A stretch of DNA of 35,135 nucleotides, taken from Bacteroidaceae bacterium (GTDB taxonomy: Bacteria > Bacteroidota > Bacteroidia > Bacteroidales > Bacteroidaceae). The notes beneath the pieces are model-generated. The model saw only the letters and a list, made by a program, of their open reading frames with translations. It was not told the DNA's origin and did no database searches. The stretch spans positions 1 through 35,135 of the forward strand of contig JAGAYH010000050.1 of assembly GCA_017940565.1 (NCBI GenBank), written 5' to 3'. This document shows, piece after piece, positions 8,276 to 35,135 of the stretch (position 1 is its first letter; every line of letters starts with the position of its first letter). The translations under genes were made by a program, and so were the position numbers.

Positions 8276-9013
8276 CTATTTATATTTATTATATAGAAGT
8301 TCTGCCCCTAAATAGATAATCCAACGCACTTTATTATAATACTCGTCATGGAACGGTTGTTTGTAGTTAATAATTCTTCCCTTTATTGAGAAATGTTCAG
8401 ATTGAGAGAATAATTTGTAATATTGATAAACATAGGCATATCCAGCAACTTCTTCAAACGACTTCAATACATCATAAATTTGAGAAACTTTCCCTTTAAA
8501 TTCAATATTATTTATCTTAATAGGTTGTTGAGAATTAAATTTCCACTCTTCACCTTTAGCAGAACTTAGGCACTCTTTCAAATCATCATACAATTTTTCT
8601 TGATAATCTTTCTTCTGTTCATCAAAGGCTTCGGCATCGTCGGGGTATGTCAATTTGCGTATTTCAATGTTAGCGTTCAACGCAGTTTTTAATGACTTTG
8701 CAAAATCCAAATCAAAATAGTAGATTACATCATCTAATTGCTTATCGTTTAGTTGTGATATAAGCAAAGAAGTCATCAAATCTGTTATTATGCTACGATA
8801 CATTAAATTGGCAGGGGCACACAGAACTTCATACTCTTCATATGGTATATAATGTAGAGCATTCAATGAAATCCTTATTTTTCTAGAGAGTTCATTTAGA
8901 GCAACAAATCTTTTATTCTCGATTTGCTTAGATTTGTTTTCTGTTAATATGTGAAGCTTTTCAACAATACTTAACACCTTTTCTAATGATATAATTGCTA
9001 ATTTTCCCATCAT
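8276..9013 (-). CDS. Hypothetical protein of the DUF262-HNH/methyltransferase operon
   Basis: A 245-aa soluble-looking protein not recognised with confidence. It is Lys/Glu/Asn-rich with mostly helical character and no signal peptide. A C-terminal Tyr/Phe-rich helical segment (about residues 175-245, QYYKLFSQSEHFSIKG) loosely recalls DUF5677-type helical proteins, which I would not press. The first ATG overlaps the stop of the DUF262-HNH gene by 4 nt (ATGA, 9010-9013), implying translational coupling and equal dosage. It is AT-rich like the two genes upstream and unlike the flanking backbone. By context it is an accessory subunit, specificity factor or immunity component of the restriction-like module. 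No function is claimed. Confidence 0.7.
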   Translation of the reverse strand: MMGKLAIISLEKVLSIVEKLHILTENKSKQIENKRFVALNELSRKIRISLNALHYIPYEEYEVLCAPANLMYRSIITDLMTSLLISQLNDKQLDDVIYYFDLDFAKSLKTALNANIEIRKLTYPDDAEAFDEQKKDYQEKLYDDLKECLSSAKGEEWKFNSQQPIKINNIEFKGKVSQIYDVLKSFEEVAGYAYVYQYYKLFSQSEHFSIKGRIINYKQPFHDEYYNKVRWIIYLGAELLYNKYK

Positions 9014-10194
9014 CTATTCCCTTTCGCTCTATTATGTGTCTTGCACAACATCTGGCAGTTCTCTATATCAGTTGAGCCACCCTTGCTCCATGCGGTTACA
9101 TGGTCGGCATCCATTTCTTCCAGTTTCCAAATGCGGCGGGCATTCTGGTCGTGACCAATAGCGCAGTAGGGACAGTTGCTCACGCCCTCGGCCTTTGCCT
9201 TATCAGTCTGTTGCTGATACACTTTGCGCATGGTGGGCTTGTCGAACAAGCGGACATTCAACAGTTTTGTATCTTGACAACCACCAAGCACATACTCAAA
9301 GATTCCTCGGCGGTTAGTCACAAAGTCATCGTTCATCAATTCGCGGACTTTTGCAGATAACTCTGTATGGTCGTAGGGCTTTGCATGGAAACGCTCGTAG
9401 AGTTCGCCCCAGTTCAAGCCTTGCATTTCGTCATAGACATCATCAAACTTGCTATCCACCCAATCTATCACGGTGTTGAAATAGGTCTTTATTTCGCCGA
9501 TGTCCTCGTCACGACGATGGGCAGACATATAGCCGTCCACGTTTCCTTTACTTACCCATTCCAGAGCAGTTGCTAAGAATTGCTGTCGGTTAGCTGGTCC
9601 TTTTACATAGCTTTCCCAACGCTGAATATTGGCGTTTTGTGAGTTACTGAACTCCGCTTTGCATAGTGTAACAAATGGCCCACTGAACACGGCATTCAAT
9701 TCCTCTTGATGATTAAGAGGAATGCCTGCAATGTTAATTGTCTTAAACCATTCTTTGATTTCCTCCTCGGCATGTTCGCCCTCGCCTTCGCAAATATAGA
9801 CCAGTAACTTCGTTTGAAGAATCTTCTGTTGCTGTCCTTCATTCAGACCGTCAAAAATCTGCTCTAAGTCATTAATCTTAACAGCAAACTTGTTCTTAAT
9901 GAAACGACCAAGCGAAGTAATGCGTTGCTGACCGTCAAGCACTTCCAATTCAGTTTGAGGTGACTGATAGTCTTTGTTGCGGTTGAAGTATATCAGCCCA
10001 AGCGGATAGCCTTTCAACACAGATTCAATCACAGCAACATCACGTTTGCCGTCGGCATAAATGTAGTTACGCTGATACTCTGGCTGGATGGTCAACTGAC
10101 CAGCCAAGCCATAGAGACCTTTTCCTTCCAGTTCGTTATACTCAAAGCCGTCGCAAATCTGCTCAACGGTATAAATTTTCAATTCTGTCTTCAT
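9010..10194 (-). CDS. DUF262-HNH nuclease (GmrSD-like)
   Basis: A 394-aa fusion of a DUF262 (GmrS-like, ParB/Srx-fold nucleotide-hydrolysing) domain and a C-terminal HNH nuclease. In DUF262 the core is LDGQQRITSL (Asp87-Arg91), preceded by QPEYQRNYI..... and VLKGYPLGLIYFNR, all diagnostic. Residues about 340-394 form the HNH: a CPYC knuckle, DADHVTAWSKGG (DxDH with the catalytic His), then ENCQMLCKTHNRAKGN. Known relatives are modification-dependent or phage-defence nucleases such as GmrSD. Here the partner is an EcoRI-type methyltransferase encoded immediately upstream (ATGA overlap, 10191-10194), so it may instead be the cleavage half of a restriction-modification system. Domain calls are firm; target and dependence on modification are not visible. 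Confidence 0.88.
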   Translation of the reverse strand: MKTELKIYTVEQICDGFEYNELEGKGLYGLAGQLTIQPEYQRNYIYADGKRDVAVIESVLKGYPLGLIYFNRNKDYQSPQTELEVLDGQQRITSLGRFIKNKFAVKINDLEQIFDGLNEGQQQKILQTKLLVYICEGEGEHAEEEIKEWFKTINIAGIPLNHQEELNAVFSGPFVTLCKAEFSNSQNANIQRWESYVKGPANRQQFLATALEWVSKGNVDGYMSAHRRDEDIGEIKTYFNTVIDWVDSKFDDVYDEMQGLNWGELYERFHAKPYDHTELSAKVRELMNDDFVTNRRGIFEYVLGGCQDTKLLNVRLFDKPTMRKVYQQQTDKAKAEGVSNCPYCAIGHDQNARRIWKLEEMDADHVTAWSKGGSTDIENCQMLCKTHNRAKGNR

Positions 10195-11279
10195 ACTGAT
10201 TGCTTTTTACGGATTAGTATTCGACGGTATGGCAATTCTGGCTTTCCGTCCTTCATATAATACAGGTCGCCGTCACGAAGTCCTTTATTTATCTCTTTTA
10301 GTTCACGAGGATATGGTTTTAAGCCTAACTCTAATCCATAATCTCCGTGTGGATGACCAATAATCTCAAATTGTTCTGGGCAGTATTTGTCAAGGAAAGT
10401 AATGGGAACTCCCATCGCTCCTTCATAATCAGAGGGAATTGCATCGGTAAATGGAATGTCTATAGCGTCATAATTCTCATAATGAACATAGTCTTTTTGG
10501 CCTCTAATCTCTTTATGCTTACTATGCTTGAAGTTCTCTGCCATCGTCATTAAGCGTAAAGGCTGATGGCGGCGTCCGTGGTCAATATTTGTAAACCAAC
10601 GGGAATGTGCCGCTTCATATAATTCCCCATTCGTATCAGCAAAATAAAACCACCTAACATCATTGACTCCCAGCCAAACTTGGTTATCCTTTATCAATGG
10701 GAATATTTCTTTATAGGTGACAGCATTCATATTGCCAATGATGATAAACTGCTTCTGGGCTTCCATTAGCCACGCCACAAACTCACGGAACAGCGAGAAA
10801 GGCGGATTAGTTACAATGATGTCTGCCTCGTCACGTAGTTTGCGTATTTCCTTACTGCGGAAATCACCGTCACCCTCCAGATACTGCCATTGCAAATCTT
10901 CGATGTTGATACGATTGTCGCCCGTTACATCACGTTCAAGTACGAATATCTTGCCATGCGTCTTGCTCTTGTCAGTGTCATAGTGCGGTTGCGAAGTTTC
11001 AAAGAGAGTCGGCTGATACGGCATCTTGTACTTCTTGCTTTCAGGGGCATAGCTTGTGGAAATCAGCTTCTTCAAGCCCAGCAACTCAAAGTTCTGCGCA
11101 AAGAACTTCGTAAAGTTGCTCCATTCGGGATCATCGCAAGGCAGCAGCACCGTCTTACCACGAAACACATTCGGGTCGTAGTCCAAATAGGCGTTTATCT
11201 CCTTCTGAATGTCGGTATATTGCGTATAGAACTCATCGTTCTTCGCCGTCTTTGCATTTGCTAAGTTCGTATTTGCCAT
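10191..11279 (-). CDS. EcoRI-family adenine-N6 DNA methyltransferase
   Basis: A 362-aa methyltransferase of the M.EcoRI type, which transfers a methyl group from SAM to adenine N6. Seen: N-terminal KNDEFYTQY.DI, the unusual SAM-region LPCDDPEWSNF (M.EcoRI has a CDDP..SNF equivalent), GLKKLI, GDGDFRS, the catalytic TNPPFSLF (Asn158-Phe161), a following IIGN.N..TYKE.F.LIK.N..WLGV, and late YDAI.V/IP...IP.DY.G.MGVPITFLDK...QFE. These match the family closely from memory. It is the first gene of the three-gene AT-rich operon, overlapping the DUF262-HNH gene by 4 nt. It could protect the host from that nuclease, or supply the mark the nuclease reads. Recognition sequence cannot be inferred. Confidence 0.9.
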   Translation of the reverse strand: MANTNLANAKTAKNDEFYTQYTDIQKEINAYLDYDPNVFRGKTVLLPCDDPEWSNFTKFFAQNFELLGLKKLISTSYAPESKKYKMPYQPTLFETSQPHYDTDKSKTHGKIFVLERDVTGDNRINIEDLQWQYLEGDGDFRSKEIRKLRDEADIIVTNPPFSLFREFVAWLMEAQKQFIIIGNMNAVTYKEIFPLIKDNQVWLGVNDVRWFYFADTNGELYEAAHSRWFTNIDHGRRHQPLRLMTMAENFKHSKHKEIRGQKDYVHYENYDAIDIPFTDAIPSDYEGAMGVPITFLDKYCPEQFEIIGHPHGDYGLELGLKPYPRELKEINKGLRDGDLYYMKDGKPELPYRRILIRKKQSV

Positions 11280-25072: not shown

Positions 25073-25261
25073 TTAATCAGGCATGTTTTGTTTAAACGTA
25101 GATTCTTCTTGCCAGGGAAAGTATTCATTCTTCCATGGCTTTGTGTTCCATTTATTCGAGCCAATCTCACCATCAATGGTTCCACTCACGTTCACTAATA
25201 GTGGCTCGCTGCTTATACTGATTATTTCAATGACCGGGGGTACGTAATTTGGTTTCATCAT
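25073..25261 (-). CDS. Short 62-aa peptide, last gene of the protease operon
   Basis: No domain is recognised. The sequence starts MKPNYVPPVIEIISISSEPL, continues LVNVSGTIDGEIG, and ends in a Trp/Lys/Glu-rich tail (NTKPWKNEYFPWQEE) with no signal peptide. From memory, unverified, Prevotella-type genomes carry many unannotated short peptides with this plan: a basic start, a P..E/T..V..... segment, LL..SG, then a Gly/Asp/Trp-rich tail. It starts 7 nt after the cohesin-like gene, the same gap that separates the two genes before it, so it is probably translated from the same mRNA. It could be a substrate, propeptide-like regulator or signal handled by the operon's protease; that is inference. A second Met directly follows the first. 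Confidence 0.6.
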   Translation of the reverse strand: MMKPNYVPPVIEIISISSEPLLVNVSGTIDGEIGSNKWNTKPWKNEYFPWQEESTFKQNMPD

Positions 25262-25268
25262 AACTTTT

Positions 25269-26714
25269 TTATTTCACTACGTATTTTAATCCATTTATCA
25301 CATATATGCCAGGAGCGACCTGAACACTATAGCTTTCGCCTGCTAAAAGCTTTCGTTCTTTAATAACTTTGCCATCTATAGTTACAATCTTCGCACGGAC
25401 CGATTCTTCAGTAGAAAGTATCAGCGTATGCTTTCTTACCATAACCCTTAGGCCAGACCGTTCTTGATTTTCTATTCCAGAATACCCGTCCATAAGATGA
25501 CGGACAGACAAACTTGAAACATCGGCCTTTGTATTCAAAAACGCACGGAAGGGTTTGGAGTAGGCTGTTTCTGAACAAATGCCAAACCCCGTGCCATTAG
25601 GCCGCAGTGCAAACATACCGGTCAATTCACCTGGAGACATGTGCCTGTAAACTCCTATAAAATCTCTGTCGCATGGCATCTTCGGGGTTGCCGGTATGAC
25701 TACATTCGAGCCCGTAAATGTCACGTCACCTGCTTCGGCTTTGAAGATATACGGATTGTTCGCAGCCATAGACGTCGTCGGTGCAAATTCCACTTCCCGT
25801 GCCTCCACATCCAATGATACATATTTTTCCACGCTTACGTTTTCAGGTATTGATGCAGCAAACGGCAAACAGATGGAATACCATCCGGTATTACCAAGAG
25901 TTCGCGTGTAGCTGACACTTCCAGCGGTAAAAGCTTTTGGCACGCCGAAGTGATGTCCGTCTGTTATTACCATATTCTCTATATTGCCATTCACAACTAC
26001 ATTGTTCTCGTTAGCCAACTGGCTGCCTTCTGCTACATAAACCAACGTATTGGGATTACCAGTGGTCAGAGTTCCTTCTGCGACATCAAGAGTTTCGGTC
26101 AAATCAATAGAAGTTATCGTTTCATTTTCATTCAAAGCCAGACTCCAGTCTTCTAACGATTCTAGGGTGAAGTCGCCCTGAAGTTTCAGAGCAGTTTCAT
26201 CCGTACTGCCCACCAACACACTGCATGTATAGTCCTCGGCATGGAAAGAAGTGCTATTATCCCGACCCATATAAATATTTTTCATATCTATATTATACAG
26301 GCCGGCTTTCGTAGCTTTAAATGTGATTTCCACTACGGCTCCGCTCTCATTCTTGAAGTTAGTATTCGCACCGGAATACACCAAGATACGCAAGGCACCG
26401 TCAGATTGTGATTCAGTATCAAGCGTATGACTCCATTCGGTACGACTTTTCTTTGTTAATCGGTCATATACTAGGTCTATCAATTCCCAACCGTCTTCTT
26501 TTACTATTTCTATTCCTTCGGGCAGATACAGGTCGGTCTGAAAATTGCAGAACTGTTCGCCTGGGTTATTCAGTTCCACACTCACGGTTTTTTCTTCATT
26601 CACTTCCATAGTAAAGGAAGGAATCACAAGATTAACCCCACTCTCTGCATGCGAAGCGATGCCACCTATCAGCAGTGACATAATTGCAATTGCTTTACAA
26701 CTTATATGTTTCAT
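25269..26714 (-). CDS. Secreted cohesin-like protein with T9SS-like C-terminal tail
   Basis: A 481-aa exported protein with a signal peptide of about 24 residues ending SHA. Residues about 27-165 resemble a cohesin module: VIPSFTMEVNEEKTVSVELNN opens it, LYLPEGIEIV follows, then GALRILVYSGANTNFKNESGAVVEITFKA, the strand pattern seen in the neighbouring protein. The middle (about 165-400) is a beta-rich region of a type common in Bacteroidales surface proteins, including GWYSICLPFAASIP. The last 75 residues (KVIKERKLLAGESYSVQVAP then GIYVINGLKYVVK) resemble a T9SS type A sorting domain, so the protein is likely secreted by T9SS and surface-bound. It contains no dockerin. It lies 7 nt after the three-cohesin gene, in an operon. 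Confidence 0.75.
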   Translation of the reverse strand: MKHISCKAIAIMSLLIGGIASHAESGVNLVIPSFTMEVNEEKTVSVELNNPGEQFCNFQTDLYLPEGIEIVKEDGWELIDLVYDRLTKKSRTEWSHTLDTESQSDGALRILVYSGANTNFKNESGAVVEITFKATKAGLYNIDMKNIYMGRDNSTSFHAEDYTCSVLVGSTDETALKLQGDFTLESLEDWSLALNENETITSIDLTETLDVAEGTLTTGNPNTLVYVAEGSQLANENNVVVNGNIENMVITDGHHFGVPKAFTAGSVSYTRTLGNTGWYSICLPFAASIPENVSVEKYVSLDVEAREVEFAPTTSMAANNPYIFKAEAGDVTFTGSNVVIPATPKMPCDRDFIGVYRHMSPGELTGMFALRPNGTGFGICSETAYSKPFRAFLNTKADVSSLSVRHLMDGYSGIENQERSGLRVMVRKHTLILSTEESVRAKIVTIDGKVIKERKLLAGESYSVQVAPGIYVINGLKYVVK

Positions 26715-26721
26715 ATTCTTT

Positions 26722-28806
26722 TTAGTTATTAGTTCTTCCTAAGACAAGATTGACTTCACCGGAAAGGTCATCCACACGTATTACACCGTCGCCGTTTATG
26801 TCGGCAGCCTTAAAGATTAGGCCTTCGGTATTTCTTCCCATGATGAAGTTTACAACACCGGAAATATCGGCTACGTTTATCAATCCGTCATTGTTGACGT
26901 CTCCCAACAGATATTTAATCACCTTAAAGGAAGACTGTGTGTCTGCACCAGCATATTTGTCAGCCAAATCACCTGTGCCTAGTTTAATGTTCTTGACCTG
27001 GACATTGTAAGTGCCTTCTACCACTTCGTCATTGACGGGTTTCATCTTTATTGTCACGATGTCGCCTTCACCGGCAGCGATGCCATTGCCGTCGAGCAGG
27101 TAGCAGAAGTAGCGAATCGTATTGTCACTTATCTGGCGCGAAGTTACGGTCATTCCCTCGGCACGGGCTGTCACTTCGGTATTGTTATCATACGGTTCAT
27201 AGACGGTATTCGGATAAATCACGTCAAACTGGATACCCGAAATAGCGTCGTACGTATTGATGGCTACTTGAATTTTCAAGTCTTCGTCATTATACACGTC
27301 CGGTGTAGCCACCTCAAAGTAGTTCGGCGCGAACCGGCTGCCCGTCACCTGTACGTTGGTCAGGCGCTGGTCGGGATCATTGCTGTAGATTTGCATCGTG
27401 GCATTGAACGCCGTTTCCTCAACACTGCCGTAAACCACCGTTATCTGCGTATTGCCGTTGGCTGCGATGGTCAGGGGTAGCGTTTCTTTGATTGACAGAT
27501 TTTCGTTGTCAAACACCACGCGGTTCACCGTCAGCGGCACATTGCCATAATTTCGGATAACGAAAGTCTTTTCTGCCGGTTCTGTCACCGACACACTGCC
27601 GAAGTCCAACCGGTTGCTCACATTGATACGTGGACTCTTGATAGTGATTTGTCCGCCATACACGGCCGACACCACGTTCTCCACCTTGTTGTTGATGGTG
27701 GCGGAGAGCACCGTTTTCGTCGGAGTCCATTTCAGGCCATTGCGGCCGACGAGTTTCACTTTGAATGAACCAATCTCACCGTCGTTGCCAACTAGGGCTT
27801 TGTCCGACGGCGAATAGGCCAGCATACGCAGTGTCTTGCCGTTGAGCGACACCGACGACACATGGTCCACCTTGCGGTCGGAGAGCGTGAAACTGCCCTC
27901 CACATATTCCAACTGGTCGGGCATCTCAAATTCCACCTGATAGCCGCTGATGGCATCCATGTTGTTCATCGTCATACTCACGGTCACCTCCTCGTCCGAA
28001 ATGCCCGACACCGGTTGCACGTGCAGTTCGTTCACGGCAAAGGGGTCGGCTTTCAGCGTGATGGTGTTCAGTTTCGAGATGCTGTTGCATACCACTTTCA
28101 GCGTGCGTTCCGTGTGGCCACGCTCCACAGGGGCGTAGGTCACGTTAAGCGTCTGCGAACGGCCTGGGGCCACAGTCACGGGCAGTGCCGTCGTGCTCGA
28201 CCAGACATTCACGTCAGAGAACGTCAGTCCCGTAATCTCCAGGTTGGCGTTACCCGTGTTCGTCACCGTCACCGTCTGGGTATAGGTGCTGCGTATGGGC
28301 ACCCTTCCGAAGTCCACCGTCATGGTGCTGTACTGTGCCTTGGCACACTTGACGGTCACGGTGCCGTTCTCTTCGTTACAGGGCAGTTCATTGCCACTGG
28401 GGTCTGTCAGTTTCAGTTTCGAGGGTGCCAGTGTCGTGCTTTTCGGTTGGCTGCCCAGTTTCAGCCGTATCGTGGCCACTTCGCCACTGCTGCCGCTCAT
28501 GGCGGTCATGCCCAGCGAATAGACCAGCACATTCAGCACGCCGTCTTTCACGCCCACGGTCAGTGCGTGGTCCGTGCAGCGGCTACCCAGTTGGCCGGAA
28601 CCTTCCACCAGCGTCAGGTTGTCGCCCAGCGGCAGGCTCACCTGCAGCGACGACACGGCGTCGGTGTTCTCCAGCGTGAGACTCACCGTCACCTCGCCGT
28701 CGGGTTCGCCTTCGGCTGACGATATAGTTAGACGGTTGTCCGCCCAGGCTCCCGTGGCGAAGCACAGGAGCAGGGCAAACAACAGATATACTCTTCGTTT
28801 GTTCAT
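26722..28806 (-). CDS. Scaffoldin-like protein: three cohesin-like modules, ASH-like domains, dockerin
   Basis: A 694-aa exported protein (signal peptide ending AWA, about residue 22). Three cohesin-like modules are visible, starting LTISSAEGEPDGEVTVSLTL (about 26-150), LHVQPVSGISDEEVTVSMTM (about 260-385) and FEVATPDVYNDEDLKIQVAI (about 498-625). Each has a D(A/A)(V/I)S..Q...P pattern and a late GEV/I-type strand. Between them sit two ASH/choice-of-anchor-D-like segments (VDFGRVPI..TYTQTVTVTNTGNANLEITG and LDFGSVSV). The C-terminus is a dockerin with GDVNNDGLINVADISGVVNF and ADINGDGVIRVDDLSGEVNL. Carrying both module types it could bridge dockerin proteins and a further anchor. The ATG overlaps the protease stop (ATGA, 28803-28806). 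The cohesin call rests on strand pattern, not a search. Confidence 0.75.
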   Translation of the reverse strand: MNKRRVYLLFALLLCFATGAWADNRLTISSAEGEPDGEVTVSLTLENTDAVSSLQVSLPLGDNLTLVEGSGQLGSRCTDHALTVGVKDGVLNVLVYSLGMTAMSGSSGEVATIRLKLGSQPKSTTLAPSKLKLTDPSGNELPCNEENGTVTVKCAKAQYSTMTVDFGRVPIRSTYTQTVTVTNTGNANLEITGLTFSDVNVWSSTTALPVTVAPGRSQTLNVTYAPVERGHTERTLKVVCNSISKLNTITLKADPFAVNELHVQPVSGISDEEVTVSMTMNNMDAISGYQVEFEMPDQLEYVEGSFTLSDRKVDHVSSVSLNGKTLRMLAYSPSDKALVGNDGEIGSFKVKLVGRNGLKWTPTKTVLSATINNKVENVVSAVYGGQITIKSPRINVSNRLDFGSVSVTEPAEKTFVIRNYGNVPLTVNRVVFDNENLSIKETLPLTIAANGNTQITVVYGSVEETAFNATMQIYSNDPDQRLTNVQVTGSRFAPNYFEVATPDVYNDEDLKIQVAINTYDAISGIQFDVIYPNTVYEPYDNNTEVTARAEGMTVTSRQISDNTIRYFCYLLDGNGIAAGEGDIVTIKMKPVNDEVVEGTYNVQVKNIKLGTGDLADKYAGADTQSSFKVIKYLLGDVNNDGLINVADISGVVNFIMGRNTEGLIFKAADINGDGVIRVDDLSGEVNLVLGRTNN

Positions 28807-31800
28807 CGTTTCACCTTTACACCGTCAACAATGTAAACACCCTTCGGCTGGTTCTTCAAGGCCTTGGCAAAGTTGGCCACCTTCATACCGGCGGTATTAT
28901 ACACGCCCTGTGTCTTGGCGTTGGCCTTTACCTGCTCTATTCCGGTGCTCTCGCCCAGTTCCACCAGCACGTTGTGGCCGGTAGCATCGCTCAGACGCAG
29001 GCCACTCAGTTCAGCGTCGCCCAGGTGCAGCAGGGCGTGCTTGCCCGGAGCCAGTGTCTTGCCGTTGAGGTTGTAGGCCAGCATCAGGTATTCGTTGTCC
29101 GACAGCCAGGCCGAAGTGTTCTCAAAGCCTTTCAGGTCGTCGGCCACCGTCAGCGGCTGGTCACGCCGTGCGTTCACCGTCACCTGCACACCGGCCAGGG
29201 CCACGGGGCTCTCCACATACAGCGTGCCGTTTTCCACCGTATAGGTGGCCGTGGCTTCTGCCAGGGCGGCTACCGGCTGGTTTGGATGGAGGATGGTCTG
29301 GATGATACCGATCACGTCGAGGATGTCGATGTCCTCGTCCACGTTCATGTCAGCGGCTTCATAGATAAAGGGCTTGGGGTCCATGCCGGCGGCATAGTTC
29401 ACCGTCGTGATGACGTCGGCCACGTCCACGTCACCGCTGCCGTTGGCGTCGCCGCGCGTGCTGGTCAGCGGCGTGGCGGCCACCACGTTCGAGATGTCGT
29501 ATTCCTGCAAGTCGGTGCTCAATACCTTATAATAATAGTAATATGTCTCGCCCGGCGTTACCTCGTAGTCGGTGTAGTCCGTGGCCTCGATGTCCAGAAT
29601 CTGCTGGTTCAGGCGCACGGTGTCCACGACCATGATAGTGTCGCGGCCGACGATTTTCTGATACGGCTCACCGTAGCGATAGACATTGAAGCCCATGGCG
29701 TCCTCGAAGTCGTTGTTCTCGTTGTTCCATGTCAACTTCACGCGGCCCAAGCCGGCTTCGGCGGCGAAGCCCGTCGCCATGGAGCCGGCGGCTTGGATGG
29801 GCACATTGAAACGTGTCTTTTCGTAGGGAATCTCGAAGTATTCGTTGTCCTCGGCGCCATAGACGTAGATGCGGTTCACGCCGTCGCTCTTTGTCTTGCC
29901 CGTAATGGTCTTATAGGCCGTGTAGATGGTGCCGTCCTCGTTCCATGAGCCGTCCTCGTTCACGGCCTGCTGGGTGTAGGGCTCACGCACACCGAAGGAG
30001 ATTTGCGGGGCTACGGCTTTGTTCATCGGGCGGTTGAAATAGACTTCAAACTTATGACGGCCCACGCCCAGCGGGGCCAGGTCTTCATATTCGTCCTGAG
30101 CGTCCTTGCCATTGACCATCACTTTCCAGACGATACCGTGGGCCTCGGCATAGGGTCGGTCGGGCATATTGCTAAGGTCGATTTTACCAAAGCCACCTCC
30201 ATTACCCATTTCATAAATATATGGGCGAACGAAATCTTCTCGACTGGTTCCTAAATAAGAGGGAAACTCTGAATGATTTATTTGAGGTTTATTTCTTATA
30301 TAGCTAATAATATATTTTGTTACTCGCTCTTTATTATTAAAATAATTATTCCACTTCATTGAACTATAGTTAGGAAGAACATTAAGTTCATTTGTCGAAT
30401 TATTTACTATATTTGTATATTTCATCAATGATGCTGCGTTACCTATACTTGAGTTTATATTATTAATATAATTATTGCATTCGCCTTCTGCATTAAGAGA
30501 ATAGGAATGAGATTGGCCAAGTTCAATAACACAGTTACTCATATGTGGCGAATGAAGTCCTGTACCTGATACAAAGTTATCGTCAATTCTGATATTATAT
30601 AATTTACAATAAGATATTGTATCCCATTGATGAACTCGAATAGAAGCCCAGGGACCTTGCCCTGCACGATTTATAAACACTATAGGTTTCTCTGGTGTAC
30701 CTTTTGATATAAATGTACCAAATGAAGTAATATTTTTACCTTTAGCAAATTCGAGACGCGTTCCTGGCTCGATGGTAAAAGTGACTCCTTCTAGAATGCC
30801 AATATCATCGTTTACATAGTAAACGTGGTCTGCAGTGAGCGTGGAGTCCTTATCTATGAATCCGCTAATCTTTACCACGTTATTTACCACCAATGTGACA
30901 GGCCACTCCCAAACGGTTTCGGGGTCGGCATTACAGAAAGCCTGAATCTTCAATTTGATATGTCGGCGGTCGGCCACATGATTGGCGACCTTTACCTTTA
31001 GCGGATTGAGGCTGACACCCCGTCCGTAGGCATCGAGGTGGAGACCGAAATCGACTTCATCCGTCAGGAACTCAACCAAAGAAGCATCTTCGTATTCGTC
31101 ACCCATAGCGAGGCGCAGGGTGATGTCGGAAGCCTCGCCAAAGGTGGTGCGGAGCACAGGGTAAATGGTCACTGTTTCGCCAGCATCGACCTCACCATCG
31201 TCGCTGTAATCCGCCTCGGTTTCCTCACCGAGTTCTTTGCGGTCGCGCAACTGCATCTTCACTAAATCAAGTTCGGCAGGACGCTCGCTCATGCGGAAGG
31301 CCTGGGCGATGTTGTCGGTATGGAGCAGGTCCCCCCAAAGGATTTCCTGCGAATCGTAGTCCTTCACCATCTGCAAGGCAGAAATGGCACCGGCCACCAG
31401 CGGCGCAGCCATGGAGGTACCGTTCAATGCCTTGTATTTACCACCCGGAATGGTGCTAAGAATGTCCACCCCAGGGGCTTTCAGTTCGTAATTAAATCCA
31501 TCAGGGTCTTGAAACGAGGAAACGGCTGAATAGTTAGGCCCGTCACAGTCGTAGTTACTGAAACCGGCCAATCCATCCGATTGATTGGTGGCCTGAACTC
31601 CCAGCACAAATGAATAGGCGGCAGGGAACATCGGGCCATAAGGTTTCGTTGGATCGCACACTGGAAGTATTTGCATACCATCATTACCTGCAGCCGCTAC
31701 GATGACAACCGTCTGGTAGGCCCGCTCCAGCGCCTGGCGCAGGGCACGGCTGTTGGCGTAGGTGCCCAGTGAGAGATTGAGCACCGTGGCACCATTCTGC

Positions 31801-32750
31801 ACGGCGTAGTCGATACCCTTTACGATAGTGGCCACGTCGCCCGAACCGTCGCTCTGCATCACCGTAATGGGCATGATGAGGGCCTGCGGGTTGGCACCGA
31901 CAATGCCGATGTCGTTGTTGCTGGCTGCCGCGATGCCGGCCACATGGGTGCCGTGCATGTTGTAGTCGCGGATAACGCCGGTATTATTGATGAAATCCCA
32001 CCCGTGGACGTCGTTCTTGAAGCCATTGTTGTCGTTGTCGTAGCCACTCTCGCCGTCAGCCTCGGCCTGATTGGTCCAAAGGTTATCGACCAGGTCGGGA
32101 TGCTCGGTATCGACACCGGTGTCGAGGATGGCGATGACGGGACGCTTTTTGTTGAGGATGGGCTGCTGCCACAGGGTCTTCACGCCGTAACGCTCCAGGC
32201 CCCACTGCTGGCTGGTGAAGGGGTTGGCCTCGGTAGCGGCAATGACCTCGTCGGTGGTTTCCACATCGGCCATGATATAAACTTTATAGTTCGGCTCGGC
32301 AAACTCCACCTCGTTGAGGGCCTTCAACTGGTCGGCGAGCATCACCGTGGAATCGGGCGCGGCCGAAGGAATCTGCACCTCGTAAAGTTGGCTGAGGTTT
32401 TTGTCTTCAATCACCTGACCGTTGTAGGCCTTGGAACGGGCCAACGGCCGGTTGGGCTTTTCGTTGGGGAGCACCTTTTCCATCTTGGTGGCTCCGAAGG
32501 CTTTGAGCACGGCATCAACGCTCTTGACACTGGCCGAAACCGATTTGCTCTTGCTCTGGATGCTTACAGAAGAGGCATCCTTGAACTTTACCAACACTTG
32601 CCCGGGCACGAAGTCGTAACGCGACGCGGCCCCTTGGGCGATTTTGTTTACGGCATCCTCGTTGTCATTCGACACTTGGGCGGATGTTGACACACTTGCT
32701 ACAAAGAGTAGCAGGGGCAATAGCCTAAATAAAAAACTAAACTTTTCCAT
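28803..32750 (-). CDS. Secreted S8 subtilisin-like protease with FN3, dockerin and sorting-like tail
   Basis: A 1315-aa serine protease. I take the ATG at 32750, giving MEKFSFLFRLLPLLLFVASV and cleavage near SAQ; an in-frame ATG at 32786 adds 12 polar residues. After an inhibitor-like propeptide (about 45-160), the S8 triad is complete: Asp210 in AILDTGVD, His266 in HGTHVAGIAA, Ser446 in NGTSMAAPLVAG. Next come a beta-sandwich region, an Asn-rich parallel-beta-like segment (about 633-857), an FN3 domain (about 995-1095), a dockerin (GDANGSGDVDVADVITTVNY with a degenerate second loop MNVDEDIDILDVIGII), a cohesin-like strand region, and a tail ending PKGVYIVDGVKVKR. Nucleotides about 30180-30870 are far more AT-rich than both sides. 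It is first in the four-gene operon, with ATGA overlap to the scaffoldin-like gene. Confidence 0.9.
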   Translation of the reverse strand: MEKFSFLFRLLPLLLFVASVSTSAQVSNDNEDAVNKIAQGAASRYDFVPGQVLVKFKDASSVSIQSKSKSVSASVKSVDAVLKAFGATKMEKVLPNEKPNRPLARSKAYNGQVIEDKNLSQLYEVQIPSAAPDSTVMLADQLKALNEVEFAEPNYKVYIMADVETTDEVIAATEANPFTSQQWGLERYGVKTLWQQPILNKKRPVIAILDTGVDTEHPDLVDNLWTNQAEADGESGYDNDNNGFKNDVHGWDFINNTGVIRDYNMHGTHVAGIAAASNNDIGIVGANPQALIMPITVMQSDGSGDVATIVKGIDYAVQNGATVLNLSLGTYANSRALRQALERAYQTVVIVAAAGNDGMQILPVCDPTKPYGPMFPAAYSFVLGVQATNQSDGLAGFSNYDCDGPNYSAVSSFQDPDGFNYELKAPGVDILSTIPGGKYKALNGTSMAAPLVAGAISALQMVKDYDSQEILWGDLLHTDNIAQAFRMSERPAELDLVKMQLRDRKELGEETEADYSDDGEVDAGETVTIYPVLRTTFGEASDITLRLAMGDEYEDASLVEFLTDEVDFGLHLDAYGRGVSLNPLKVKVANHVADRRHIKLKIQAFCNADPETVWEWPVTLVVNNVVKISGFIDKDSTLTADHVYYVNDDIGILEGVTFTIEPGTRLEFAKGKNITSFGTFISKGTPEKPIVFINRAGQGPWASIRVHQWDTISYCKLYNIRIDDNFVSGTGLHSPHMSNCVIELGQSHSYSLNAEGECNNYINNINSSIGNAASLMKYTNIVNNSTNELNVLPNYSSMKWNNYFNNKERVTKYIISYIRNKPQINHSEFPSYLGTSREDFVRPYIYEMGNGGGFGKIDLSNMPDRPYAEAHGIVWKVMVNGKDAQDEYEDLAPLGVGRHKFEVYFNRPMNKAVAPQISFGVREPYTQQAVNEDGSWNEDGTIYTAYKTITGKTKSDGVNRIYVYGAEDNEYFEIPYEKTRFNVPIQAAGSMATGFAAEAGLGRVKLTWNNENNDFEDAMGFNVYRYGEPYQKIVGRDTIMVVDTVRLNQQILDIEATDYTDYEVTPGETYYYYYKVLSTDLQEYDISNVVAATPLTSTRGDANGSGDVDVADVITTVNYAAGMDPKPFIYEAADMNVDEDIDILDVIGIIQTILHPNQPVAALAEATATYTVENGTLYVESPVALAGVQVTVNARRDQPLTVADDLKGFENTSAWLSDNEYLMLAYNLNGKTLAPGKHALLHLGDAELSGLRLSDATGHNVLVELGESTGIEQVKANAKTQGVYNTAGMKVANFAKALKNQPKGVYIVDGVKVKR

Positions 32751-33614: not shown

Positions 33615-34502
33615 TTAGTTATCTTGTAGCCATGGAACTCCATAGTTTACTTCGGTGTCATCCGCCACAAAGAGATTCTCTGGAGGTAAAATAATCTTTG
33701 CCTTTGCTAACCGTTCTAGATAATCACTACGAATAGCGCTATTCTCTATTTCTTCTCTTCTGGCTTTACTTATAAACAAGAACTCATCTTCCAGTTCTAG
33801 ACCAAGATAGCGTCTTCCCAATAGATTAGCAGCAATGCCAGTTGTTGCACTTCCACTAAAAGGATCTAGAATCCATGCCCCCGGCCGGGTACTGGCCAGT
33901 ATCAATCTTGCCAATAAGCCCAGTGGCTTTTGCGTAGGGTGTTTTCCACATGACTTTTCCCACCTACCTATGGAAGGTAGTTGCCATACATCTGTCATCT
34001 GTTTATCCCCATTAAGTTGTTTCATCAGTTCATAGTTATAGTAATGAGCAACTTTTGGTGACTTTCTTGCCCAAATGATAAATTCAGTCGAATATGTAAA
34101 ATAACGGCATGAAATGTTTGGTGGAGGATTGGTTTTAGCCCATGTTATTACATTCAGAATCTTGAATCCCAACTTTAAGAGCTGTTGTTGCACACTGAAA
34201 ATATTATGGTGCGTTCCTGAAATCCAAATGGTAGCATTATCCTTCATGTGGTCTCTGCAAGCAGAAAGCCACCTCAGATTAAACGCATCCATTTCTTCAG
34301 GTGTTGAAGGCTTGTCCCATTCTCCCTTATCTACACAAACAATTTGACCACTTTTACAAGATATGCCGCCACCAGATAAAAAATATGGTGGATCTGCAAA
34401 AACCATGTCAAATCCGAATTTAAATTTTGACAAAGTCTCAACACAATCTCCCTTTATCAGGGTAAAATCTTTATTAGGTGATTTATAGAAAGATTCTAAC
34501 AT
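33615..34502 (-). CDS. Beta-class DNA methyltransferase, DpnA/M.MboIC-like
   Basis: A 295-aa N6-adenine/N4-cytosine DNA methyltransferase. The catalytic motif DPPY (Asp37-Tyr40) comes before the SAM-binding motif FSGSATTGIAA (about 218-228), the order that defines the beta class. Flanking segments GDCVETL, FADPPYFLSGGG, WISGTHHNIF, KTNPPPN, and KHPTQKPLGLLARLI are typical of the DpnA / M2.MboI / M.HinfI-like group, whose DpnA members modify GATC, including single strands. The target here is not proven. The gene begins immediately after the stop of the endonuclease-like gene with no gap, forming an R-then-M operon. Both are AT-rich relative to the backbone, which is consistent with transfer. 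Confidence 0.9.
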   Translation of the reverse strand: MLESFYKSPNKDFTLIKGDCVETLSKFKFGFDMVFADPPYFLSGGGISCKSGQIVCVDKGEWDKPSTPEEMDAFNLRWLSACRDHMKDNATIWISGTHHNIFSVQQQLLKLGFKILNVITWAKTNPPPNISCRYFTYSTEFIIWARKSPKVAHYYNYELMKQLNGDKQMTDVWQLPSIGRWEKSCGKHPTQKPLGLLARLILASTRPGAWILDPFSGSATTGIAANLLGRRYLGLELEDEFLFISKARREEIENSAIRSDYLERLAKAKIILPPENLFVADDTEVNYGVPWLQDN

Positions 34503-35135
34503 TTATTTTACGATACGATACCTTGCCGACCTGACAAGTTCTATACTATTATAATCATTCATATCGGTGAATTTGTATTGCCAAATATAATATAATTCAT
34601 CCCCGCCTATAGTTCTTTTTTCAAAGAAAACTGGAACGACATCCTTGTTTGTGTTCTCGGACCATTGCCTAAATGGATAGTACAATTGTCGGATAATCTC
34701 TGTAGTGTTAGAAGAATTTTTGGCTTCTATCAAAACAATTTGGTTCCTACCTTCATATCCAGCATCAACCTCTGTTTGGACACTTTCTGCCTTTATCTTA
34801 AAACCATTGACAGTAAATTCAAATTGTGGGGTGTATTTCCTTCCACGAATGGTAAGTACTAACGAAGGATCACTTATAAACGTCCTTATTAAGGAATTTG
34901 CATAAGCATAATCTAAGTGTTGCATTTCTGAATCACCTACTCTTGAACTCTCTAATTCGAAATCAAGTTGCTTATGATAATTTACAATTGGGGTATTTAT
35001 ATCAGGGACATCAACATACCCTTCTCCTTTTATGATATAATAATAGCCATTCTTCTTTGGAAGTAAGAATACCCCATTATCCTTAAATACTTGGGGACGA
35101 TCTTCTCTTCTATCTTGTTTACATAATATCCGCAC
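34503..35135 (-). CDS. Type II restriction endonuclease-like protein (N-terminus outside window)
   Basis: The C-terminal 210 residues of a protein whose start lies beyond the right edge; the first visible codon is an internal GTG or a chance start. A PD-(D/E)xK-like nuclease core is visible: TEVDAGYEGRNQIVLIEAKN gives the acidic residue (VDAG) and the E-A-K pair after a hydrophobic strand, followed by IIRQLYYPFRQW. Upstream lies MQHLDYAYANSLI. It does not resemble R.DpnII as I remember it, although the adjacent methyltransferase is DpnA-like, so recognition may differ from GATC or the enzyme may be a different lineage with the same site. Endonuclease function is inferred from the EAK core and the directly adjoining methyltransferase. 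Confidence 0.65.
   Translation of the reverse strand: MRILCKQDRREDRPQVFKDNGVFLLPKKNGYYYIIKGEGYVDVPDINTPIVNYHKQLDFELESSRVGDSEMQHLDYAYANSLIRTFISDPSLVLTIRGRKYTPQFEFTVNGFKIKAESVQTEVDAGYEGRNQIVLIEAKNSSNTTEIIRQLYYPFRQWSENTNKDVVPVFFEKRTIGGDELYYIWQYKFTDMNDYNSIELVRSARYRIVK

Follow-up and report, generated by a model that had tools for sequence, protein, structure and literature searches.

A subtilase operon with cohesins and dockerins in a Bacteroidaceae genome, and a gene-order rule that may reflect surface assembly by docking

The window analysed here, a stretch of 35,135 nt from a Bacteroidaceae bacterium (GenBank assembly GCA_017940565.1, contig JAGAYH010000050.1), is the entire contig C23 of a 1.79-Mb genome (G000) that is 63% complete. 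Its open reading frame (ORF) listing contains a tight run of four genes, all on the minus strand and here named A, B, C and D (Table 1). A encodes an S8 subtilase with a dockerin, B a predicted adaptor scaffoldin, C a putative anchoring protein with a single cohesin and D a peptide of 62 residues. The A/B junction is an ATGA overlap and spacers of 7 nt separate both B from C and C from D, with coordinates and spacing as given in an earlier note on this DNA, which had been made from the sequence alone. The main observation of this study is that genes with a cohesin at their start lie directly behind a dockerin gene, a rule which extends beyond the A-B-C operon and raises the possibility that these proteins dock to one another on the cell surface in the order of their genes. 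Loci and genomes used for comparison carry L and G numbers.

Gene A encodes, in this order, a signal peptide, a prodomain, the protease, a long middle region, a dockerin, about 120 residues holding a cohesin-like module, and a short C-terminal tail. Its frame is open from 32786 to 28803, and the ATG at 32750, which stands before the signal peptide, is a more plausible start than 32786. The catalytic domain belongs to the S8 subtilases (PF00082 155 bits, E 3.4e-45; PDB 4lvn E 6.6e-36), and the complete triad claimed by the earlier note is borne out, the Asp, His and Ser motifs being present in all 22 A proteins checked, including that of the window (L058, where A is cut, and L066, where it is split, were excluded); in 8 of them the serine motif reads GTSMACP. 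The dockerin of A scores 18.4 bits with PF00404, below the Pfam cut-off of 22.9, but A dockerins of 12 relatives score 19.4-30.4 bits and 11 of the 12 exceed the cut-off, so that this part of the earlier description also stands. Both calcium loops are retained, by eye in the alignments, in the dockerins of A and B. A fibronectin type III (FN3) domain, also reported for A, is not supported: no Pfam match to it appears at E<=10, the best profile match (E 0.088) is not FN3, and an Fn3-like entry reaches E 0.31. The module behind the dockerin is probably a divergent cohesin, as suggested by hhalign values of 93% against post-dockerin cohesins of other proteins and 51% against the cohesins of B; by single-sequence hidden Markov model (HMM) scores it is not separable from 867 decoy pieces.

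For gene B, the genome-wide search with PF00963 gives 28.0 bits for the first module (cut-off 24.1) and 23.5 bits for the third, and hmmscan of the window's B protein does not list the Cohesin family. Orthologs of B match the same family more strongly, with 64.2 bits in L172 and 51.8 bits in L061 and three stretches in each. The first module of B is the best cohesin match of the whole genome in 11 of 13 relatives; in G007 it is the second, and in G013, where B is cut, there is none. When the B profile is compared with the PDB, the 17 best distinct sequences are all scaffoldin, cohesin or NagJ chains, the last of which we take to be the cohesin of NagJ; the best has E 0.0016 and the other 16 lie at 0.011-0.14, only the first thus falling below 0.01. 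Judged by these matches, the modules of B are true cohesins, and a profile check set beforehand likewise places them in the cohesin family. The dockerin at the end of B matches PF00404 with 29.1 bits and the PDB dockerin 6kgc with E 3.8e-6, in agreement with the dockerin type I model. The earlier reading of B as three cohesin-like modules plus a dockerin is thus upheld.

Gene C itself has no Pfam cohesin match. C-like genes of relatives straddle the PF00963 cut-off, scoring 16.8-25.6 bits in the genome-wide search (hmmscan gives 22.5 and 21.4), and a profile of C and its homologs matches the PDB cohesins 5n5p (E 7.6e-6) and 8ajy and 4iu2, both named 'Cell-wall anchoring protein' (about E 1e-5). 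The closest PDB entries are a putative cellulosomal scaffoldin and this 'Cell-wall anchoring protein', all presumably from Ruminococcus flavefaciens. By profile, together with its homologs, C appears to carry a cohesin, as had been supposed.

Table 1. Features of the A-B-C-D operon and of the left edge of the window
Feature	Position	Strand	Description and basis
Gene A	28803..32750	-	S8 subtilase precursor, 1315 aa from ATG at 32750; ORF listing, Pfam, neighbour of B in 24 loci
S8 catalytic domain of A	31356..32147	-	PF00082, residues 214-477; triad motifs IAILDTGV, HGTHVAG, GTSMAAP
Dockerin of A	29289..29453	-	Pfam, alignment; strongly conserved between species
Cohesin-like module of A, directly after dockerin	28917..29273	-	Divergent, probable; hhalign
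Short C-terminal tail of A, GVYN..KGVYIVDGVKVKR	28806..28907	-	Alignment; like type IX secretion tails by eye only
Gene B	26722..28806	-	694 aa; signal peptide, cohesin - HYDIN Ig - cohesin - HYDIN Ig - cohesin - dockerin; putative adaptor scaffoldin
Cohesin 1 of B, N-terminal; putative docking site of A dockerin	28333..28743	-	PF00963 28.0 bits; alignment; PDB cohesins
HYDIN/choice-of-anchor-D Ig domain 1 of B	28048..28341	-	PF22544, NF012200
Cohesin 2 of B	27625..28041	-	Alignment; custom HMM; three PF00963 stretches each in L172 and L061
HYDIN-type Ig domain 2 of B	27340..27612	-	Pfam/NCBIfam matches, residues about 398-489
Cohesin 3 of B	26908..27333	-	PF00963 23.5 bits, just below cut-off; custom HMM
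C-terminal dockerin of B; proposed plug for C cohesin	26773..26907	-	PF00404; PDB 6kgc; tail instead in some orthologs
Gene C	25269..26714	-	481 aa; N-terminal cohesin behind a signal peptide, then a middle region and a short tail; putative cohesin-type anchor
Cohesin of C	26199..26642	-	Custom HMM (C itself in model); PDB cohesins matched by family profile
Short C-terminal tail of C (GIYVINGLKYVVK)	25272..25310	-	Custom annotation; TIGR04183 12.5 bits
Gene D	25073..25261	-	62-aa peptide; member of short-peptide family behind genes with short tail
Left-edge dockerin-protein segment	691-834		One of 18 common-type proteins

The order of A and B is conserved. In the gene-order survey A directly precedes B in 24 of 24 loci that hold the start of B (12 named loci, 11 new ones and the window); this includes all the named loci, in two of which A is cut (L058) or split in two frames (L066). 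L069, which matched through its signal peptide only, and L068, which begins inside B, were not counted. Among 301 sampled genomes of the window's family, B (E<=1e-30) is found in 12 and the end region of A (E<1e-59) in the same 12, the window's included, while G210 and G211 have weak A-like ends (E about 1e-25) without B. The two genes lie on one contig in 11 of these 12 genomes, and in G147 the pair meets at two contig ends. Of 19 sampled genomes of the window's genus only the window's own has the pair, so its distribution is sporadic. The named relatives of B come from Prevotella, Prevotellaceae and Bacteroidaceae genomes, most with titles that refer to the ruminant stomach, and one is the isolate Prevotella sp. 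P6B1 (L060), which has A together with a B that ends in a tail.

Presence of C follows the way in which B ends. Among 23 loci with a visible end of B, 14 have a dockerin and 9 a tail at this position, and C lies behind 11 of the 14 dockerin-ended but none of the 9 tail-ended B genes (Fisher p 3.4e-4). The association persists without near-duplicate species (p 0.001) and without L061 and L203 (p 0.003), which were classed as tail-ended by eye, the HMM not having flagged them. L059, whose B is cut by the contig end, was left out of this count, and L057 was included even though the contig ends within its C.

The same arrangement of a dockerin gene and then a cohesin-first gene is seen beyond the operon. 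In the first annotation of all fetched loci, 66 of 72 cohesin-first genes are preceded by a dockerin gene, 5 are not and 1 lies at an edge; the five include B of G147, with A on the other contig, and one case hidden by the gene caller. Among loci chosen by cohesin matches, 13 of 15 cohesin-first genes follow a dockerin gene, where one of the dockerins is weak and partial (L248) and one of the two misses (L246) was masked in the gene calling. Because many of the first loci had been chosen for their dockerins, two tests were made on other genomes. The first used 247 genomes sampled from the class, of which the cohesin model at E<=1e-7 matches 3, namely the window's, G046 and G534. In G534, which belongs to another family of the order, the sole dockerin match (E<=0.001) is in the gene before the sole cohesin gene (E<=1e-7), and this first gene is Omp28-like (30.9 bits, below the cut-off of that family) and not an S8 protease. 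In G046 (L266) a cohesin-dockerin gene is followed by a C ortholog (29% identity over 505 aa) and then by a D-type peptide. Within the window's family, the cohesin model at E<=1e-12 matches 122 of the 301 sampled genomes. A blind set was then taken with models built beforehand; it comprises 40 loci, each on a single contig of a different genome new to the analysis, namely the first 40 in order among the matches listed. Here 27 of 28 genes with an N-terminal cohesin have a same-strand dockerin gene directly before them, as compared to 11 of 218 other genes (Fisher p 1.8e-27), with gaps of -11 to 170 nt; the 28th gene has 429 nt of contig before it, and a recount over all open frames gave again 27 and 1.

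We lean towards the view that the proteins form a surface assembly by cohesin-dockerin docking, the order of which follows the gene order, with A on B, B on C and C anchored to the cell. The dockerin of A would dock on the N-terminal cohesin of B, and the C-terminal dockerin of B on the N-terminal cohesin of C. C would be exported and fixed to the surface by the short tail at its C-terminus, with the type IX secretion system (T9SS) as the probable route, cohesins 2 and 3 of B would be free for further clients, and the protease would act outside the cell. The earlier note had imagined an assembly organised around the protease. The architecture of enzyme, adaptor scaffoldin and anchoring protein is in line with a docked surface assembly, and the S8 protease is indeed constant in the A-B pair. 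However, the first proteins of dockerin-then-cohesin pairs elsewhere are also BspA-type leucine-rich repeat (LRR) proteins, Omp28-like proteins and others, and the type of assembly is therefore not organised around a protease.

Covariation between the presumed partners is suggestive of such pairing. Over 10 of the 11 B-C loci (L066 omitted as near-identical to L065; L068 is without a full B), distances between B dockerins correlate with those between C cohesins with r 0.84 (permutation p 2e-4), or 0.82 when the B core is allowed for, as compared to 0.40 for the B dockerin with the first cohesin of B and 0.38 for the B dockerin with the rest of C (allowing for the B core). Between L056 and L065, for example, identity is 72% in the dockerin and 66% in the C cohesin but 52% in the B core and 53% in the rest of C. 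In the blind set, dockerin and next cohesin co-vary with r 0.62 over the 26 pairs with a long enough dockerin match, and with r 0.77 over 14 C-terminal dockerins, some of which are near-duplicates.

Several observations weigh against the proposed relay. The covariation falls to r 0.27 (p 0.06) when each of the two closest pairs is reduced to a single locus (L066 again omitted), and in the same 23 blind cases dockerins co-vary almost as well with a cohesin of their own protein (0.57) as with that of the next gene (0.66), which leaves room for co-inheritance; adjoining genes are co-inherited whatever their function. C is absent from three of the 14 dockerin-ended loci (L058, L063 and L207). Dockerins are present on 50 of 300 genes in the blind loci, of which only 27 pairs are formed, so that a cohesin-first gene implies a dockerin gene but the reverse does not hold. 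A has a tail and a cohesin-like module of its own and hence may not need B for anchoring. The tail of C scores 12.5 bits with TIGR04183 against a cut-off of 23, and six homologs of A, B and C give no TIGR04183 listing at E<=1. SprA, the T9SS pore, was not found in the window's genome, at its 63% completeness, or in G147. Finally, 15 of the 40 blind loci have no gene that starts in a cohesin within 60 residues, and in 10 of these 15 a single cohesin-dockerin-cohesin protein, mostly with a tail, has no adjoining cohesin gene; for such loci, docking within or between like chains fits better than a relay. The other five comprise two dockerin-cohesin and three cohesin-dockerin proteins, and in L316, which is among them, the next gene has a cohesin from residue 62.

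As for the tails, which the earlier note had called sorting-like in A and T9SS-like in C, the resemblance to T9SS type A cargo is one by eye, of a short C-terminal tail that ends in the pattern KGIYIVNGKKVVxK. Unlike curated cargo, the tail of C misses the TIGR04183 cut-off and that of A is not listed in the search, so the likeness to T9SS is a resemblance only. SprA_N is present in 23 of 25 genomes with B and in none of 14 controls.

A self-contained unit has to be taken seriously as a rival to the relay. Here the dockerin of A type would pack on the adjoining cohesin-like module, either within one chain, where it would cap and stabilise the C-terminus, or on a second copy, giving a fibre, and the cohesins of neighbouring genes would do otherwise. 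In every species seen the cohesin-like module lies right after the dockerin of A, and an HMM finds one in 19 of 30 other post-dockerin regions. The cohesin-dockerin-cohesin proteins and the own-protein covariation described above fit this explanation, as does the higher between-species mean identity of the A dockerin (0.76, over 9 loci) as compared to the B dockerin (0.41), which is expected of a fixed internal contact. Such a unit leaves unexplained, however, why cohesin-first genes follow dockerin genes in 27 of 28 cases and why there are C-terminal dockerins without a module behind, and the post-dockerin module of A is only a probable cohesin. We place it on the unlikely side without dismissing it. 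Possible self-docking cassettes of the cohesin-dockerin-cohesin type, most with a short tail, are seen in L288, L289, L295, L307, L313, L315, L325 and L326.

Dockerins of these genomes fall into two classes. Those of class one stand at the very C-terminus and are often alike within a genome across unrelated proteins while differing between genomes (identity averages 0.66 in 485 pairs from one genome and 0.36 in 3343 pairs from different genomes); those of class two, as in A, have a cohesin-like module and a tail behind them. In the window's genome 18 fetched proteins have a near-identical C-terminal dockerin (DSADIVAVIK type; median identity 0.92 with B counted as a 19th), from which the dockerin of the window's B differs. 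Several types occur per genome in G003 (median 0.49) and G009 (0.35), and in L058 and L063 the B dockerin is of the genome-wide type. Common-type dockerins are swapped for other types in related genomes, which looks like a species-specific sorting or docking tag. A 214-aa protein on contig C54 (L055 4314-4958), with a single cohesin and a short tail, is a candidate receptor of the common dockerin; a contig end is about 525 nt away, and no dockerin gene is visible in front of it.

This pattern could also mean that the C-terminal dockerins of a genome meet one common receptor, such as the C54 protein, and that A, B and C are co-regulated without specific pairing. The 18 near-identical dockerins, the orphan cohesin-tail protein and the genome-wide type of the B dockerin in L058 and L063 speak for such sharing. 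On the other hand, the window's B has a C of its own and a dockerin unlike the common type, C is found only behind dockerin-ended B, and there is no single common type in G003 and G009. We rate a shared receptor as very unlikely for the operon. A further reading, in which the cohesin modules serve as passive Ig-like spacers or as adhesin domains instead of docking and adjacency arose by duplication of surface genes, is barely plausible: the B ortholog in L061 does carry MBG and List_Bact repeats, but the strict order with the dockerin gene first and the cohesin at the N-terminus of the next, the swap of dockerin and tail at the end of B which tracks gain or loss of C, and the retained calcium loops all argue otherwise.

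Client proteins of the dockerin type are varied. Ten of the 18 common-type proteins were scanned and contain BspA-type LRR or DUF285 domains, an M60 peptidase (one of the ten), a GDSL lipase, a metallophosphatase with laminin-G and a tyrosine phosphatase, two having only a dockerin or EF-hand; no glycoside hydrolase family is matched in the ten at E<=1e-5. Eight dockerin proteins of relatives include three with a C10 peptidase, two of these with a Spi inhibitor domain; several others have LRR or DUF285 domains, and none of the eight a glycoside hydrolase. Proteases are thus one client type among several. Two of these proteins (L132 2006-5182 and L159 2283-5513) combine a C10 (streptopain-type) peptidase, a Spi inhibitor domain and a C-terminal dockerin. 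The dockerin protein at the left edge of the window, proposed in the earlier note as a further client of this assembly, does end in a dockerin; its type is that of the 18 and unlike that of B, which makes some other cohesin its more likely partner.

Most discussion of cohesins and dockerins concerns cellulosomes. Like the clostridial and ruminococcal systems, the proposed assembly would have three tiers, with a dockerin enzyme, a scaffoldin with several cohesins and a dockerin (three cohesins in B), and a protein with a single cohesin and a surface tail. Unlike them, no carbohydrate-binding module (CBM) family is among the Pfam matches of B or C at E<=10, the operon has no glycoside hydrolase by Pfam, its enzyme being S8, the cell is Gram-negative, a tail replaces the S-layer homology (SLH) or LPXTG anchor, and genes are ordered dockerin first and cohesin next. 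An excerpt on Candidatus Stygibacter (Cloacimonadota; PMC8542988) describes S8/S53 and C25 peptidases with C-terminal dockerins and a cohesin scaffoldin with a conserved C-terminal surface-attachment domain. This is similar to our proposal in its dockerin peptidases and in a cohesin scaffoldin anchored by its C-terminal domain, and dissimilar in its other phylum, its single 3,755-aa scaffoldin with CBMs and, in that excerpt, the lack of a gene-order rule. For Ruminococcus albus, an excerpt of PMC6118326 infers that a single cohesin holds dockerin enzymes on the cell; the likeness lies in one cohesin as cell anchor for dockerin enzymes, the difference in a Firmicute host, polysaccharide enzymes and one general anchor instead of one beside each dockerin gene. 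As to Bacteroidetes, part of PMC5831590 states that a rumen lineage, like other Bacteroidetes genomes, is without cohesins and dockerins, parts of PMC6071333 and PMC7480376 count dockerins and some cohesins in Bacteroidetes bins without describing a system, and part of PMC5742341 mentions a distinct cow-rumen cohesin group, citing Bensoussan et al. 2017. In the open literature searched, seen in excerpts, the gene-order rule was not found described; Bensoussan et al. 2017 and Peer et al. 2009 may bear on it. An idea close to that of the earlier note is already in print for Candidatus Stygibacter, and our finding extends cohesin-dockerin assembly and is not a wholly new kind of system.

If gene order does equal assembly order, the partner of a dockerin could often be read from the genome, and orphan surface proteins of gut and rumen Prevotella could be tested in pairs, with many new plug-and-socket pairs to be expected. 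It also raises the question of the route to the surface taken by proteins that have a dockerin at the end where others have a tail; a lipobox is found by pattern in 1 of 79 class one proteins. A stronger form of the proposal would be that docking replaces the secretion tail, such that dockerin-ended proteins without tail or lipoprotein signal cross, or are held on, the outer membrane only via the tail of the adjoining cohesin protein, gene order then spelling out a chain whose plugs and sockets differ between species throughout the Prevotella family. We hold this to be distinctly unlikely in its full extent.

Of the 12 C genes with enough sequence downstream, 11 have a D-type peptide behind them, and behind the twelfth (L056) a D remnant lies in two frames. 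The window's D has no match in Pfam or NCBIfam; members of its family are about 45-75 aa long and share, by eye, the motif M-K-x-Y-x-x-P ... L-A-x-S ... W-x-D-E. Relatives of D (E<=0.01) are present in 15 of 17 genomes, each of which has 2 to 27 copies. Among 20 further copies (L267-L286), 17 have a same-strand upstream gene in the stretch, and 15 of these 17 sit 15-94 nt behind a gene ending in a short T9SS-like tail. D is thus a companion peptide of tail proteins. Its interpretation as a companion of cohesin genes as such was dropped, since its relatives follow short-tail genes in general. In the cohesin loci, D was counted behind 15 of 79 tail genes as compared to 2 of 523 others; this comparison was not used, being circular, because the seeds of the model came from behind such genes in the same loci.

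Some further genes were noted around these operons. No Rfam match at gathering score is present anywhere in the window. Behind A-B-C in L056 (14263-18059) there are, by eye, lasso-type B2, radical SAM and PqqD-like proteins and others, resembling a peptide-modification cluster of the kind that makes ribosomally synthesised and post-translationally modified peptides (RiPP-like), and genes like those of nonribosomal peptide synthetases (NRPS) were seen by eye near A-B in L062 (11373-15104) and L067 (16816-22752). At the right edge of the window (33615-35135) a DNA methylase and a DUF6996/6997 gene (Pfam) may belong to a restriction system, and an HNH-like and methylase-like cluster recognised by eye at 8276-11279 could represent another.

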